Below, piece by piece: positions 45,091-50,273 of a stretch of DNA of 64,000 nucleotides. A model generated the notes under the pieces. That model had not been told where the DNA came from. It saw only the letters and a list, made by a program, of their open reading frames with translations, and made no database searches. A program made the translations under genes and the position numbers. This DNA is from Rhizobium etli CFN 42 (GTDB lineage Bacteria > Pseudomonadota > Alphaproteobacteria > Rhizobiales > Rhizobiaceae): positions 434,001-498,000 of the forward strand of contig NC_007765.1 of assembly GCF_000092045.1 (NCBI RefSeq), given 5' to 3'. How positions within the stretch are numbered: position 1 is the first letter of the stretch; the number at the start of each line of letters is the position of its first letter.

Positions 45091-45495
45091 ATGAAAGAAG
45101 AACCGCACGCAGTAGATGTTCATGTCGGAAAGACGATCCGCATACAGCGTCTGCTGCGCAAAGTTTCGCAGACGGAATTGGGCGATCGTGTCGGCGTAAC
45201 GTTTCAGCAGATCCAGAAATACGAAAAAGGCTCCAACCGCGTTTCAGCCAGCATGCTGGTTGAAATCGCCGGCGCGCTGAATGTGGACGTCAGGACGTTC
45301 TTTGACGACCTGTCGACCCCTGTAACGGCTAACGACAACCCGGCTCCCAGCGAGGAATTCGTTATTTCGCGCGAGGGTGTCCTTCTGAATGCGGCGTTCT
45401 TCTCGATCAAAAACGAAGCTCTTCGCAAGAAGATCCTGAAGCTTGTTCAGGCAATCGCCCACACCGAACAGGTCGACGGTGAAGCGGCCGAATAG
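45091..45495 (+). CDS. XRE-family HTH regulator (PraR/PhrR-like)
   Basis: The product is 134 aa, starting after AGGAGGG at 45091. The helix-turn-helix is at residues about 12-66: VGKTIRIQRLLRKVSQTELG, then DRVGVTFQQIQKYEKGSNRV, which is the form found in rhizobial PraR/PhrR-type regulators and many alphaproteobacterial paralogues. The C-terminal half is helical (LNAAFFSIKNEALRKKILKL) and likely mediates oligomerisation. PraR affects quorum sensing, biofilm and attachment in R. leguminosarum; whether this is the orthologue or a chromid paralogue cannot be told. A perfect inverted repeat precedes it. Confidence 0.85.
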   Translation: MKEEPHAVDVHVGKTIRIQRLLRKVSQTELGDRVGVTFQQIQKYEKGSNRVSASMLVEIAGALNVDVRTFFDDLSTPVTANDNPAPSEEFVISREGVLLNAAFFSIKNEALRKKILKLVQAIAHTEQVDGEAAE

Positions 45496-45536: not shown

Positions 45537-45803
45537 TCAATGGCGATCGATCAGGATCAGATTCTCGCTAGCGTCCTTCATTGCGATCTTGGCCTTGCTG
45601 CCGAGCAGTTTCTCGAGGTTGACGTCAAGTTCCCTGTCCGGATCTATGCCGTCCCAATCGATGACGACCTGCAGCAGCGCCATGTTCGTCAGGTGCATCA
45701 GATTACGCAGCTGAAGCTTTTCAGCCTCCTCCTTGGCTGCCGACAGCAGCCGGAAGATCCTTGCGTATTCACTGCCTGTACCTTCGTTATGTTGTTCAAA
45801 CAT
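45537..45803 (-). CDS. small conserved helical protein of unknown function
   Basis: The product is 88 aa, without cysteines, signal peptide or membrane segment. It starts MFEQHNEGTGSEYARIF; most of the chain is predicted helical (LLSAAKEEAEKLQLRNLMHL, then LLQVVIDWDGIDPD) with an acidic tail. It begins 64 bases after the tfuA stop on the same strand, so it may be the last gene of the YcaO-TfuA unit, or an unrelated gene with its own promoter. I recognise no family. Confidence 0.55.
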   Translation of the reverse strand: MFEQHNEGTGSEYARIFRLLSAAKEEAEKLQLRNLMHLTNMALLQVVIDWDGIDPDRELDVNLEKLLGSKAKIAMKDASENLILIDRH

Positions 45804-45867
45804 TGTCCCGCCCCTTTGGCCGTGAAGCCTCAGATTCCATCACCACTGCATCATTTCGCCGAGACCG

Positions 45868-46611
45868 TTATTCTAGCGTTACAGGAGTCACATTGCGTGT
45901 GACTTCCGCGTGCAAAAGCTCCCAATGCGAGGTTGCGGCAAAGCGCCAGTCACGATTGACGGGTGCGAATTCGTCGCGATGCAGCCACTCCAGCACCAGC
46001 CGCGCGTCGTTGCGTTTGCGTTCGACGCGGTTCTTGCGGAGAGCGGCTAGGAGGTGGTCGCGGCGCGGCTTGCGGAAATGGCACTCGTCGATCACCCTCG
46101 CATAGGTGCGCTCGGAAAAATGCAGGAAGCGACCGGAGAGCAGCAGTTTCTTGCGCTCACCCGTCGAAATCTCGCCGCAGGCATAAAGCGCATCGATCGT
46201 CGGTTCGAAATCGACCCAGGGTACGGAGAGCGGCAGCCAGCCAAGCGCCTGCGGCGCATGTACCAGCGCGACGGCCTCGTCGTCGAGCAGCCTCCCGGAC
46301 TCGTAATCTTCGAAGATCGAGCCGAGGCCGACCATCCCGAACGGAGCGCATTCCGCAGCCCGCAATGCGCCCATGCTAGCGCCGCCGGCTACGGCGACAT
46401 CATGTTCAAGCGCGTAGAGAATTTCCTTGTGCCAGACCGAAGGCAGCTCGCCGAAATAGCCGTCGACGAGGCCGATCGCGGTGGCGCCATCCTCCACCGC
46501 CTTCAGGATGTCGCCGCGGGCGGCGGGCGGGCGGAAATCGATGCAAGGAGAGATATTTCTCGCTGCGGCAAGGCCGCTACCAAGGCTCGGACCGACGAAC
46601 AGAACCTTCAT
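45868..46611 (-). CDS. tfuA: TfuA-like protein (YcaO partner)
   Basis: The product is 247 aa, made almost entirely of the TfuA core domain: MKVLFVGPSLGSGLA at the N-terminus, AIGLVDGYFGELPSVWHKEI, VAVAGGASMGALRAAEC and GMVGLGSIFEDY. TfuA was named from trifolitoxin production in Rhizobium leguminosarum bv. trifolii. Together with YcaO it forms thioamides: in methanogens on methyl-CoM reductase, in actinobacteria on peptides. It is thought to deliver sulfide. Its ATG overlaps the ycaO stop by four bases, so the two are translationally coupled. Confidence 0.9.
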   Translation of the reverse strand: MKVLFVGPSLGSGLAAARNISPCIDFRPPAARGDILKAVEDGATAIGLVDGYFGELPSVWHKEILYALEHDVAVAGGASMGALRAAECAPFGMVGLGSIFEDYESGRLLDDEAVALVHAPQALGWLPLSVPWVDFEPTIDALYACGEISTGERKKLLLSGRFLHFSERTYARVIDECHFRKPRRDHLLAALRKNRVERKRNDARLVLEWLHRDEFAPVNRDWRFAATSHWELLHAEVTRNVTPVTLE

Positions 46612-47876
46612 GATTGGGCTCCTCTCATGGTGTTGACGGCGCGCAGGCCGAGCTGGATGTACTGACCTGATATATCGACCTCCAGGCCCGGCACGATCAC
46701 CCTGACGACTGAGACCGGCAAAGCCGGATGGGCAAAGGGCACGGCGACGATCTGCCCGATCCCGCTCGCCACCAGCCGGTCGGCTATGTTGTGGATGGTC
46801 TCCTGGATCGTCGCGGCACGGCGATGGCGGCTCTGAAAGGCGCGCATCCGGCCGTCGCTCTCGCAGAGTTCGACCAGCTGCTGCATCGCCGCACTCTTGT
46901 CGAGCCGCTGATAGATGCGCGGCGAGAAATCGTCGCGGCTGCCGGCGATCGCCGTCAGCCGGCTCTGCGCCGCCTCGGTGATGGCGCGCAATGCGGCGCG
47001 CACGGGATCGCGATGGCAGCCGCAGCCGCCGCAGACATGCGACCAGCGCGCGTCGACGCGGTCGGAAAGATTGCCCGGCATGATGACGGCCAGAAAAGCC
47101 GGAACGCCGACATCGGTGGTCATGTCGATGAGCAGCAGCCGCATGCCGGCGCGGGTGATCCGGTCGGTCATGACGTCGATGACCGCATCGTCGAAGGAGG
47201 CGGGGTCGATGCGGCTCTCCTGGAGGCGCTGCGGTGATTTCAGCTGGGTCAGAGCCCAGGCGTCGCGCTCGACCAGCTCGCAAAGGCCGTGCAGAACCGC
47301 TTCGGACGGCGTATTGCCGGAGGCAAGCCCATCGCTCGACTGCTCGAAGCCCGGCGGCCGCTCGCCGCGATGGTCGAGGCCGACGAGCCACCAGGGGACA
47401 AAGACGCTGCTGCCGGACAGAATGTCGAGGCCAGAGCACCAAGGGATGGGGTCACCGCCGATGTCATCGGGTGCGCATCGTGCGACATTGTCGAGATCGA
47501 TCATGGCGGCGCGTTCCGCCCGCATGCTCTCCACCGTCGCCTTCGTCAGGTCGGCAGGCGCAATTTCCGCGATTCGCGTCTCGATCGCCTCCATGGCGGC
47601 CGAGGCCATGGCGGCATCATTGTCGATGCCTTTGCCCTGGAAGACCGAAAGCGTGTGGCTGTTCGGCCTCGTCGCAAAGGCGACTGGGATGTTCAGAACG
47701 TCGAGGGCGGTCAGCAGGCCGACGCGCGTGATGCCGAATCCGCGCAGATGCGGCCGGATGGCTGCAAGTGTCTGCGCCGGCATGACTGCGCGGTCGTGAT
47801 ATTCGCTGACGCCGGCGGATGATCGTTTGAGATCAGCGGCTAGCGTTTCAAGGTCGGCAAAGGCGGACATTCCCAT
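46608..47876 (-). CDS. YcaO-domain cyclodehydratase/thioamide synthetase
   Basis: The product is 422 aa. YcaO ATP-binding motifs are visible: SAAMEAIETRIAEI (ExxExR helix, about residues 90-103), SSDGLASGNTPSEAVLHGL followed by CELVERDAW (the second Glu pair), and a C-terminal domain. There is no E1-like or ThiF partner domain, and the neighbouring gene is tfuA, so backbone thioamidation is more likely than azoline formation. The first ATG (47876) is followed by another two codons on; AAGGA overlaps the stop of the 47-aa peptide gene seven bases upstream, so translation is probably coupled to it. Confidence 0.9.
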   Translation of the reverse strand: MGMSAFADLETLAADLKRSSAGVSEYHDRAVMPAQTLAAIRPHLRGFGITRVGLLTALDVLNIPVAFATRPNSHTLSVFQGKGIDNDAAMASAAMEAIETRIAEIAPADLTKATVESMRAERAAMIDLDNVARCAPDDIGGDPIPWCSGLDILSGSSVFVPWWLVGLDHRGERPPGFEQSSDGLASGNTPSEAVLHGLCELVERDAWALTQLKSPQRLQESRIDPASFDDAVIDVMTDRITRAGMRLLLIDMTTDVGVPAFLAVIMPGNLSDRVDARWSHVCGGCGCHRDPVRAALRAITEAAQSRLTAIAGSRDDFSPRIYQRLDKSAAMQQLVELCESDGRMRAFQSRHRRAATIQETIHNIADRLVASGIGQIVAVPFAHPALPVSVVRVIVPGLEVDISGQYIQLGLRAVNTMRGAQS

Positions 47877-47883
47877 CTCGTCC

Positions 47884-48027
47884 TTAGCGGAACTTCAGGG
47901 CATGAGTCAGGTTTTCGAGGGCGTTCGCATTGATGGTGAGTTCGTCCTGCTTCATCGCAGCCTTGGCTGCAGCCGAGAAACGCGGCTGGGACGGAATTGC
48001 GGCATTGGGTTCAACACTGGTTTTCAT
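47884..48027 (-). CDS. candidate precursor peptide of the YcaO-TfuA locus (47 aa)
   Basis: The frame runs from ATG at 48027 to TAA at 47884 with GGAG eight bases before the start. The peptide starts MKTSVEPNAAIPSQPRF, continues SAAAKAAMKQDELTINANAL and ends ENLTHALKFR. It has no Cys and no membrane segment; Ser/Thr are few. The stop codon is seven bases before the ycaO start and forms part of its ribosome binding site. Position, size and coupling are those of a RiPP precursor, with an alpha-helical leader (SAAAKAAMKQDEL) and a C-terminal core of about 10-15 residues as the simplest reading. The absence of Cys/Ser-rich core argues for backbone thioamidation and not azoles. That it is modified is inference. 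Confidence 0.75.
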   Translation of the reverse strand: MKTSVEPNAAIPSQPRFSAAAKAAMKQDELTINANALENLTHALKFR

Positions 48028-48060
48028 TGTCCATCTCCAATGGGATAGGCAGCGGGCTGC

Positions 48061-48117
48061 CGTTAACCATTGAAGAGGAACACTGCCGGCGTCATTTAAG
48101 CGTTACAGGCTTCGTTA
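48061..48117 (-). promoter_or_regulatory. three CGTTA repeats upstream of the peptide gene
   Basis: CGTTA occurs at 48061, 48101 and 48113 in the 103-base gap between the BTAD regulator and the peptide gene (TAACG when read in the direction of transcription). SARP/BTAD regulators usually bind short direct repeats near the -35 region. Spacing here (12 and 40) is not the classical 11/22, so this is a weak candidate site. Confidence 0.25.
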
Positions 48118-48130
48118 AAAGGCCGCATAA

Positions 48131-50086
48131 TCAGGGAAGTCCTGCCAGGTGCAGGCCATGAATCAGCGTTTCCGTGTAGCGAGGATCGCGATCGGGAACG
48201 AAATGGCGGATGTCCTCGCTGCGGAAATCCGGAAAATTATCCAGAACGACGCTCGCATAACCGCCAGCCTTTTTCATATCCCCCGCCATGGCGTGGGCGG
48301 CTGCGAGTAACCGGGCGGTCGCCTGCTTGGACTTCACCGGTTCAAGCGCCTCGATCGCCTGTTGGTATTCTCCGCGATCGAAGTGAATCCCGCCACGATT
48401 CCAGTAGTAATAATCGGGCGGCAGCGGATTGAGCTTGAAGGCCGCGTTGTTCAGGTCCAGCGCTTTGTCAAAGTCGCCGTAGTGGCACAGCGCATCGGCG
48501 TAGTCGGCGAGGATGTCGGCATCGTTGGGATTGAGATCCTGCGCCTGCTGGAAATAGTCCAGGCTTTCGTCGAAACGGCGGCGGTACAGCGCCACGAAAC
48601 CCAACTCGCGGTAGGCCCTGCCGCTGTTCGGATCGGACTGCTGCGCCTGCCGGGCGGCGCCATTCGCCTCGTCGAGCAGTTCGGTGTCCTGCATGCCGCG
48701 GATCAGCCATTCCATGCCGAGCGCACGCGACACGCCGGCGTGGGCGGCCGAAAAATTCTCGTAACGATTGAGCGAGGATTTGAACCATTTGCGCGCCTGA
48801 CGCAGATGCTGCAGGTCGGTCTGGGCGATCAGCCGCTTGCCTTCCAGATAGAGACGGTAGGCGGATGGCGGCGCATCGCCGATCGGCATCGCCAGCTCGT
48901 GGCGTTCGACGGTGTCGGCGAGCGAGGAGACGATGCGCCGTGTCAGATGCGCGAAGGATTCACTGATCTTCTGCATGACCAGCGGCAATTCCAGAGCCCA
49001 GATCACCTCCGATGTCGTCGTCCGCGTCAGACGGCAGGTCGCATAGACATCCTCGTCGCGGCCCTGGATGGTGACGTAAACCGCATAGTCGAAGCTGAGG
49101 TCGAGCGGGCGGGGCACGGCACGGGCCGGATCGACCGAACGGCTGAGGATTTCGAGGCTCGTATGGGCTGCGATCACCCTGAAGCCGCGCTGCTGGCTGA
49201 GGCCGATGGTGACGTCCTCAAGCAAGGCCCTGCCGACGCGCTCCATCAGCGGATCGGTGAAAATGCTTTCCGGCGGCAGGATGATGATCCGCGGCTGGCC
49301 GAGCAGATCGGCGAAGCCACTCGGCCCAGCCGATGGACGTTCGGCCGCAGCGGGCTGAGCTGCCGGGATCAGGCCGAGTTCGCGGGCGAGCGCGGTGGTG
49401 CTTTCCTCCGGCTCGGCGTCGAACTCGTCCTTCAGCTGGCTTTTGCACTTCAGATAAGTTTGGCGCGCCGCGGCCGGATCGTTCATCCTGACATAAGTGC
49501 GCATCAGGGCCCGATAGGCCGTCTCGCTGGCGGGGTCGAGCTCCAGCAGGCGACGGGCAAAGGCCACCTGCTCTTCATCCGATCTGTCTTCAGCGGTTTC
49601 CACCAGCCGGGTCAGATGGGCGGCGCGCAATTCGTCGACGCGCTGGCGCTCGAAAGTCAGCCAGTCCTCGGCGCCCTGCGTCGGCGACTTGGCGCTTTCG
49701 AGCAATTCGCCATTGAGAATGTCGCCGTCTTCGGCTGCGAGCGGCCCTTTCTGCTTCAGCATATGGACGTCGACTTCCCAGCCGTCGGCAAGCCCGATAT
49801 GGGTTCGGGTCGCTTTCAGCAGCGGCGGCAGGGCGGCGGGAATGCTTTGCTCGATGCGCGCCAGCAGCTGGCGCAGACTGCCTGCGCGTTTTTCCGGCGC
49901 TTCCGATTGCCAGAGCTGCCGTCTGATGGTTTCGCGGTCGAGTTCGAGATTGGCTTCGGCGGCGAGCATGGCGAAGAGAAAATAAGACTTCTCCGGCAAG
50001 GGGAGTTCCCTCCCCGCTGCCAGCAATCGCGGTCTTCCGAGCAGGCAGAGCCTGTTCGTCGACATCTGTCCGGATGTCCGTTGCAT
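48131..50086 (-). CDS. SARP-like transcriptional activator (wHTH-BTAD-TPR)
   Basis: The product is about 650 aa. An OmpR/SARP-type winged helix (LCLLGRPRLLAAGRELPLPE, then AMLAAEANLELDRETIRRQL) is followed by a BTAD domain (GELLESAKSPTQGAEDWLTF to RQTYLKCKSQLKDEFD), then a central alpha/beta sensor-like part and C-terminal TPRs (SGRAYRELGFVALYRRRFDE, then NPNDADILADYADALCHYGD). Such activators are typical of Streptomyces antibiotic clusters and are rarer in rhizobia. It lies 103 bases upstream of the peptide-ycaO-tfuA genes on the same strand, the obvious candidate regulator. The start is uncertain: frame opens at 50125 (GTG); I use the ATG at 50086 after GTGAGAAG; ATG 50065 is the last option. 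Confidence 0.8.
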   Translation of the reverse strand: MQRTSGQMSTNRLCLLGRPRLLAAGRELPLPEKSYFLFAMLAAEANLELDRETIRRQLWQSEAPEKRAGSLRQLLARIEQSIPAALPPLLKATRTHIGLADGWEVDVHMLKQKGPLAAEDGDILNGELLESAKSPTQGAEDWLTFERQRVDELRAAHLTRLVETAEDRSDEEQVAFARRLLELDPASETAYRALMRTYVRMNDPAAARQTYLKCKSQLKDEFDAEPEESTTALARELGLIPAAQPAAAERPSAGPSGFADLLGQPRIIILPPESIFTDPLMERVGRALLEDVTIGLSQQRGFRVIAAHTSLEILSRSVDPARAVPRPLDLSFDYAVYVTIQGRDEDVYATCRLTRTTTSEVIWALELPLVMQKISESFAHLTRRIVSSLADTVERHELAMPIGDAPPSAYRLYLEGKRLIAQTDLQHLRQARKWFKSSLNRYENFSAAHAGVSRALGMEWLIRGMQDTELLDEANGAARQAQQSDPNSGRAYRELGFVALYRRRFDESLDYFQQAQDLNPNDADILADYADALCHYGDFDKALDLNNAAFKLNPLPPDYYYWNRGGIHFDRGEYQQAIEALEPVKSKQATARLLAAAHAMAGDMKKAGGYASVVLDNFPDFRSEDIRHFVPDRDPRYTETLIHGLHLAGLP

Positions 50087-50273
50087 CCCGCTTCTCACCC
50101 CTGAAGACCAGACGCGCATACGCACCGGTCAGGAACATGTTAGAGCGATAATAGGCCCGCGCATAGCGCAAAAAGAAGTTTTTACACCGAATATTTGCAT
50201 TTTCTCACATAAGCGGCCGGAAATGCTTGCCAACACTTTGCCCCCGACGTGATTTTGATCCGTTATTCCAGCC

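Follow-up and report, generated by a model that had tools for sequence, protein, structure and literature searches.

A conserved 47-residue candidate RiPP precursor in a putatively SARP-type-regulated YcaO-TfuA cassette of Rhizobium

We analyzed a 64,000-nucleotide (nt) stretch of the Rhizobium etli CFN 42 genome (contig NC_007765.1, positions 434,001 to 498,000; hereafter the window, numbered from its first letter), in which a short peptide gene is followed by ycaO and tfuA. A first-pass annotation of this DNA had proposed a compact three-gene locus for a ribosomally synthesized and post-translationally modified peptide (RiPP). All three genes lie on the minus strand (Table 1), and the products of the adjacent ycaO and tfuA both score over the cut-offs of PF02624 and PF07812. 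The coordinates of the 47-codon frame and its proper ribosome binding site were borne out, as was the spacer of 7 bases between its stop codon and the first ycaO ATG (position 47876); on a near-identical plasmid the ycaO start is annotated two codons later, which gives a 13-base spacer. The proposed overlap of ycaO with tfuA is also present and spans 4 bases (ycaO ends at 46608 and tfuA starts at 46611). The coupling of the three genes is therefore real, but the unit is larger than had been proposed. It comprises six genes, in the order BTAD-TPR regulator (similar to Streptomyces antibiotic regulatory proteins, SARPs), peptide, ycaO, tfuA, small helical protein and XRE regulator, together with two SARP-type repeat sites, and it has a paralogue in the same genome.

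Two R. etli plasmids, of 505 and 512 kb, are the nearest plasmid records; their YcaO proteins are 99.1% and 98.8% identical to that of the window, and the annotation of the second labels the peptide a hypothetical protein. A homologue of the BTAD-TPR gene is annotated in a public record as a “BTAD domain-containing putative transcriptional regulator” of 1956 bases. In agreement with the first-pass annotation, none of the 14 features annotated within 6 kb on the near-identical plasmid is a dedicated exporter or protease.

Table 1 Features of the cassette, in window coordinates.
Feature	Position	Strand	Evidence
Precursor peptide gene, 47 codons (47 aa)	ATG at 48027, stop ends at 47884 (47884..48027)	minus	Read from the sequence; conservation and selection
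Ribosome binding site GGAG	48035..48038	minus	Read from the sequence; seven bases 5′ of the peptide ATG
Residues 16-28, RFSAAAKAAMKQD, conserved block, probable recognition (leader) part	47944..47982	minus	pN/pS 0.076; invariant residues
Residues 35-47, NALENLTHALKFR, conserved C-terminal block, probable core	47887..47925	minus	pN/pS 0.112; invariant residues
ycaO, 422 aa	46608..47876	minus	PF02624, Pfam 1.7e-66
tfuA, 247 aa	45868..46611	minus	PF07812, Pfam 1.8e-36
BTAD-TPR (SARP-like) regulator, 664-codon open reading frame from the first possible start	48131..50125	minus	Pfam BTAD 6e-13 and TPRs
Small helical protein gene, 88 aa, marker of the cassettes	45537..45803	minus	Homologues in related cassettes; structure model
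XRE-family regulator, 134 aa, convergent with the small gene	45091..45495	plus	HTH_3 7.1e-13
Putative operator 1, 11-bp direct repeat GTAACGCTTAAATGACGC	48089..48106	minus	61 nt 5′ of the peptide ATG
Putative operator 2, GTAACGCTAGAATAACGG	45865..45882	minus	Overlaps the tfuA stop; 61 nt 5′ of the small gene ATG

Conservation marks the 47-codon frame as a genuine gene. It was present 5′ of ycaO in all 44 loci found by a YcaO search of genome_contigs, a query that favors close kin and whose most distant loci came from Metarhizobium and two metagenome-assembled genomes (69-70% YcaO identity). Among 148 Rhizobium genomes, the peptide was found in 91, the same 91 that carry a YcaO of at least 68% identity, and in each of these it lies adjacent to ycaO on the same strand, with gaps of 5-134 nt. 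The 57 remaining genomes, in which the peptide was not found, have either a more distant YcaO only (51) or no YcaO (6). Loss of the frame from related loci, which the first-pass annotation had named as grounds for abandoning it, did not appear at any of the 44 and 91 loci. Outside the genus the peptide looks rare: matches with E < 1e-10 were obtained in 4 of 297 genomes drawn from the order, and all 4 were Rhizobium.

Purifying selection acts on two blocks of the peptide. The ratio of nonsynonymous to synonymous polymorphism (pN/pS), estimated by an uncorrected counting method from 40 distinct 47-codon sequences, was 0.61 for residues 1-15, 0.08 for residues 16-28 (RFSAAAKAAMKQD), 0.27 for residues 29-34 and 0.11 for residues 35-47 (NALENLTHALKFR). 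For comparisons across families we fetched loci from 60 of 68 TfuA places in Rhizobiaceae (54 of 199 genomes have TfuA) and from 20 of 26 TfuA places in a sample of the class (21 of 385 genomes), and added 11 hand-chosen stretches; several loci come from the same or nearly the same genome (for example L043/L134 and L044/L137), so the counts do not represent independent events. Across the 45 distinct peptides of the fetched loci, R16, S18, A20, A21, K26 and Q27 are invariant in the first block and N35, H42, A43, F46 and R47 in the second. This pattern is that of a putative recognition block followed by a putative core.

The six genes form a unit. In the nine most distant loci with a peptide of the window's type, family A (L042-L044, L083-L088), they stand together at 42-85% identity, while the neighbouring nadC, IclR, SDR and amidohydrolase genes are unmatched and nadB matches in 3. 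The paralogous cassette lies on contig C2 of the same genome (L078:4353-9150; G000:C2) in the order XRE, BTAD-TPR, peptide, ycaO, tfuA and small protein. Its ycaO and tfuA match those of the window at 35% and 44%, its small protein is homologous, and its 70-aa peptide is unlike that of the window and belongs to a second family, B. We then placed 99 YcaO proteins in a quick tree, which omits L099, L100 and L160 (no ycaO match) and 34 of the 44 genome_contigs loci. A BTAD gene lies directly upstream in family A (19/19), family B (29/29) and a third family, C (8/8), and in 0/43 others. A precursor of type A, B or C stands beside ycaO in all 56 BTAD-linked loci and in none of the other 43, and therefore each regulator-linked YcaO in the sample has one of three peptide types. 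Families A and C require one change each on the tree and family B three; the regulator-linked branch, which includes L080 and L081, has a support of 94 in the Shimodaira-Hasegawa-like approximate likelihood ratio test (under the starred 95).

Profile searches identified families A and B; family C was assigned by eye and then confirmed by a profile that matched all 8 C loci and no other. Three to four tandem C-terminal units occur in 4 of the 30 loci matched by family B (L101, L108, L115 and L118; the 30 count one place twice). In database relatives of the family B precursors there are two to three. No repeated core was found in the 45 distinct family A peptides. The model of a family B precursor has three strands and a helix, with 10-residue means of 71-85 over residues 1-50 and 42 in the tail. 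In family C (L102, L113, L116, L122, L133, L164, L166 and L167), proteins of ~130-160 aa occupy the precursor slot, with two copies in L102 and an N-terminus resembling that of family B, and these are possibly precursors with a larger folded leader. Searches of Pfam and NCBIfam models gave no named family for the family A peptide; families B and C gave no Pfam family at 0.1, and family C and other peptides gave sub-cut-off, chance-like matches only in NCBIfam.

Some loci depart from these arrangements. L080 is a reduced cassette of XRE, ycaO and small protein with no match to BTAD, peptide or tfuA in the stretch, and L099 and L100, where tfuA neighbours an XRE regulator, gave no ycaO match in the stretch. 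In L155 and L158, which have YcaO-TfuA without BTAD, short frames 5′ of ycaO end in near-repeats (ASAEIFASSAEIFSAKM and similar), possibly the repeated cores of another precursor family. By eye, frames resembling TPR-type helical repeats lie 5′ of ycaO in 13 further loci without BTAD (L103, L106, L107, L109, L110, L112, L117, L127, L139, L148, L163, L165 and L168).

The two genes at the end of the cassette follow the same division. An XRE relative was present in the stretch in A 18/18, B 25/29 and C 6/8 loci and in 1/43 others, and the small protein in A 18/18, B 24/29 and C 3/8 loci and in 1/43 others. A profile seeded with the small gene of C2 reaches that of the window and collected 85 loci, some of them duplicates, after four rounds. 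Within the genome, good matches to the small protein occur at the two cassettes only (the third match has E 0.009). In Rhizobiaceae it was found in 29 of 199 genomes, all of which belong to the 54 carrying TfuA, and 31 of its 35 matches lie within 2.6 kb of a tfuA; in the class sample it was found in 1 of 385 genomes, the window's own. Its model is a confident helical hairpin in residues 7-51 (helices 7-29 and 33-51), for which a fold search returned no informative match (best E 4.3).

An alignment of 52 upstream regions drew attention to an 11-bp direct repeat, GTNACGS-N5-TNACGS. The window contains two copies, GTAACGCTTAAATGACGC and GTAACGCTAGAATAACGG, against 0.09 expected, and 0 of 100 shuffles had two; the pattern was drawn from these loci, and therefore its conservation rather than the window count serves as the test. 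Among the 56 family A loci, a looser form without the leading G lies 57-65 nt 5′ of the peptide in 55, and 55-73 nt 5′ of the small gene at all 47 starts that could be parsed. These two places hold 108 of the 124 sites in family A loci, where the reversed pattern gave 4 matches and each of seven other spacers between 1 and 26. Of the 29 B loci, 24 have a site within -3.5 to +3 kb of ycaO, and all 24 have one just past tfuA. In this range a site was also found in 2 of 8 C loci, with three more C loci having one at ~+4 kb, and in 2 of 43 other YcaO-TfuA loci. Heptameric direct repeats with 11-bp units are the classical sites of SARPs (review PMC10972967). The regulator of the window has a BTAD domain (PF03704, 6e-13), and Pfam gave no match in it to NB-ARC or, at 1e-3, to an N-terminal winged-helix DNA-binding domain. 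The BTAD protein is predicted to bind the repeats. Two same-strand repeat matches 228 bp apart (L189/L190; G000:C2:2103114 and 2103342) were seen near an integrase-like frame, identified by eye, and at neither YcaO locus.

For the two enzymes, the best-scoring curated models are those of McrA-glycine thioamidation, with 198.9 bits for YcaO against TIGR03266 (cut-off 365) and 174.4 bits for TfuA against NF033432 (cut-off 235.2); YcaO scored 117.4 bits against the azole-type, SagD-family TIGR03604 (cut-off 219.25). The closest solved relatives are MJ1094 for YcaO (6pe3, 8.5e-31) and a TfuA-domain protein for TfuA (6xp8, 1.3e-27). YcaO residues 29-401 align to MJ1094 with the Glu-rich motifs kept, so that the presumptive ATP/Mg-binding core is retained. 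We consider the 47-aa peptide very probably a RiPP precursor that YcaO and TfuA modify, likely by backbone thioamidation. A thioamide in the backbone is the best fit, with its presence and its site predicted from the genes.

Our combined findings make it likely that the locus is a self-contained, SARP-type-regulated RiPP cassette, in which the thioamide, the binding by the regulator, the role of the small protein and the function are predicted. In the mechanism that we propose, the BTAD-TPR protein would bind the 11-bp direct repeats 5′ of the peptide and small-protein genes and switch on both, perhaps opposed by the XRE protein. The 47-aa precursor would be translated just ahead of YcaO and TfuA, and its RFSAAAKAAMKQD block would be read by YcaO, acting by ATP-dependent amide activation, with TfuA delivering sulfur. 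Within the C-terminal NALENLTHALKFR block, the two would exchange the oxygen of a backbone amide for sulfur, giving a thioamide, with finishing, if any, by housekeeping proteases and transporters.

The near-invariant core suggests a conserved partner (a signal, a regulator or another target) over a fast-changing antibiotic. With no exporter, protease or immunity gene nearby, apparently local regulation and a co-resident paralogue, this core tips the balance towards a conserved function, for example signalling. One form of such signalling, which we consider a long shot, is a self-sensing switch: the TPR part of the cassette's own BTAD regulator (or the XRE protein) would sense the thioamidated C-terminal peptide as its ligand, the small helical protein would tune the response, modification state or sulfur supply would set the expression of the cassette, and paralogous cassettes would be separate channels. 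To our knowledge, no thioamide-based peptide signalling circuit has been described. A narrow-spectrum antibiotic, compatible with the peptide being a precursor, is the strongest functional alternative and is still the less probable one. Trifolitoxin, a Rhizobium peptide antibiotic, is an analogue in its favor. Phazolicin is another, as an azole-modified rhizobial peptide antibiotic (PMC6783444, PMC10128002). Against an antibiotic stand the almost invariant core, the lack of an exporter or immunity gene among the nearby annotated features, and the occurrence of the cassette peptide in 91 of 148 Rhizobium genomes.

Next in weight, YcaO-TfuA may modify another target, such as a host protein, as in the thioamidation of McrA or uL16, with the peptide having a regulatory or accessory part and not being the substrate. 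The identity of the best curated models points this way, though the scores are below cut-off, as does a near-invariant C-terminus, which is unusual for a diversifying RiPP, and thioamidation of uL16 by a YcaO has been reported in Pseudomonadota (PMC13063428). We nonetheless find this improbable: precursor type tracks the YcaO tree, with 1, 1 and 3 changes for families A, C and B against shuffled means of 17.6, 7.8 and 25.2, sister precursors carry 2-4 tandem C-terminal repeats, and the one slot is filled by three dissimilar peptide types.

An azol(in)e or another YcaO product that is not a thioamide has a slimmer chance still. The YcaO family also makes azolines and amidines, and the SagD-family model matches, albeit below its cut-off, but TfuA is present and none of the 14 features annotated on the near-identical stretch is a dehydrogenase or cyclodehydratase partner (the rest of the genome was not searched). 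As the first-pass annotation had remarked, the peptide is poor in suitable residues, with 0 Cys and 6 Ser/Thr. Its view that the product is not of the azoline type gained further support, since none of the 13 columns of residues 35-47 is invariant for Ser, Thr or Cys across the 45 distinct peptides and Thr41 is replaced by Val in 9 of them; this makes it unlikely that an azoline forms at a fixed position of the core. Finally, the odds that the frame is a chance open reading frame or an untranslated leader of ycaO are negligible, for small frames commonly arise by chance but this one is kept at 44/44 and 91/91 loci with pN/pS of 0.08-0.11 in two blocks, and a non-coding frame was rejected on these grounds.

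Returning to the regulated RiPP cassette, several observations weigh against it. Both enzymes fall under the curated cut-offs of the thioamidation models (TIGR03266 and NF033432), and no protease, exporter, immunity or sulfur-carrier gene lies within the cassette. For family A, the case for a RiPP draws on linkage and selection, the repeats belonging to sister family B. Among database relatives of the peptide, P0036 is frameshifted 5′ of the core and P0028 has Ser at position 43, and L080 and L081, reduced loci of the B clade, carry B-type ycaO with no peptide or BTAD in the stretch. A 2021 survey of YcaO-TfuA clusters (PMC8120280) predicts other precursor types, berninamycin-like and Nif11-like, in some Rhizobium clusters, and notes that the dominant proteobacterial families commonly include ABC transporters and glycosyltransferases; none of these were seen here. 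The repeat sites have exceptions as well: L086 lacks site 1, 5/29 B and 6/8 C loci have no site within -3.5 to +3 kb of ycaO, and a 3-base spacer gives 26 matches, 9 of them near the small gene. With one mismatch allowed, the window has 6 matches against 4.0 expected, not above chance, and the pattern is not enriched genome-wide (14 matches against 23 for the reversed pattern). It therefore needs the context of the cassette. Three of the 14 genome-wide sites lie in the two cassettes and the others are background-like by eye; we thus rejected a genome-wide regulon, and control by the repeats looks local.

Rhizobium YcaO-TfuA clusters are already known as a class, with >500 unique clusters assigned to the genus in the 2021 survey (PMC8120280). 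The first-pass annotation had taken the precursor as not previously described. This holds for the peptide, which is called a hypothetical protein in the sources that name it (one names P0034 “Flagellin”), but less so for the class, which that survey had mined. In the literature covered, which excludes subscription papers and supplements (including the precursor tables of PMC8120280), no description of this precursor or arrangement was found. Our analysis supplies a defined candidate substrate whose core is bounded, a sister family in which the core is repeated, a set of co-travelling genes and likely switch sites. Direct tests of the chemistry, the regulation and the role thus become possible in a laboratory symbiont. 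Further members can be sought with the 11-bp repeat and the small helical protein as markers, and an otherwise anonymous peptide becomes testable as a bacterial signal or antibiotic.

The predicted product would join trifolitoxin, after which TfuA is named, and phazolicin as a rhizobial modified peptide, and differs from both in a precursor without Cys or an invariant core Ser/Thr and in having no dehydrogenase or cyclodehydratase partner annotated nearby. The enzymes resemble the McrA-glycine thioamidation pair (TIGR03266/NF033432), whose models score best for both, and differ from it in scoring below the curated cut-offs and in having a linked peptide of their own. As in uL16 thioamidation (PMC13063428), a YcaO-dependent backbone thioamide is proposed in Pseudomonadota, here predicted from genes; those YcaOs have no TfuA near and a folded protein target, whereas TfuA and a linked peptide are found here. 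The regulator is similar to Streptomyces SARPs (PMC10972967) in its BTAD domain, its place in the cluster and the classical 11-bp direct repeats 5′ of biosynthetic genes, and unlike them it is rhizobial, continues from BTAD into a TPR part without an NB-ARC match and is only predicted to bind the repeats. Known thioamidated products of the YcaO-TfuA pair came from Actinobacteria, according to the survey (PMC8120280). In one group of thioamidated RiPPs, the thiovarsolins, two of the four products can be made with no more than precursor, YcaO and TfuA, and the precursor, VarA, has repeated cores (PMC6511847), recalling the tandem repeats of the sister precursors described here. Our locus shares with such clusters (PMC8120280, PMC6511847) the adjacent ycaO and tfuA, a short conserved precursor and no dedicated exporter seen. 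It is set apart from them as an alphaproteobacterial cassette with other precursors, fixed BTAD-TPR and XRE regulators, a small helical protein and 11-bp direct-repeat sites.

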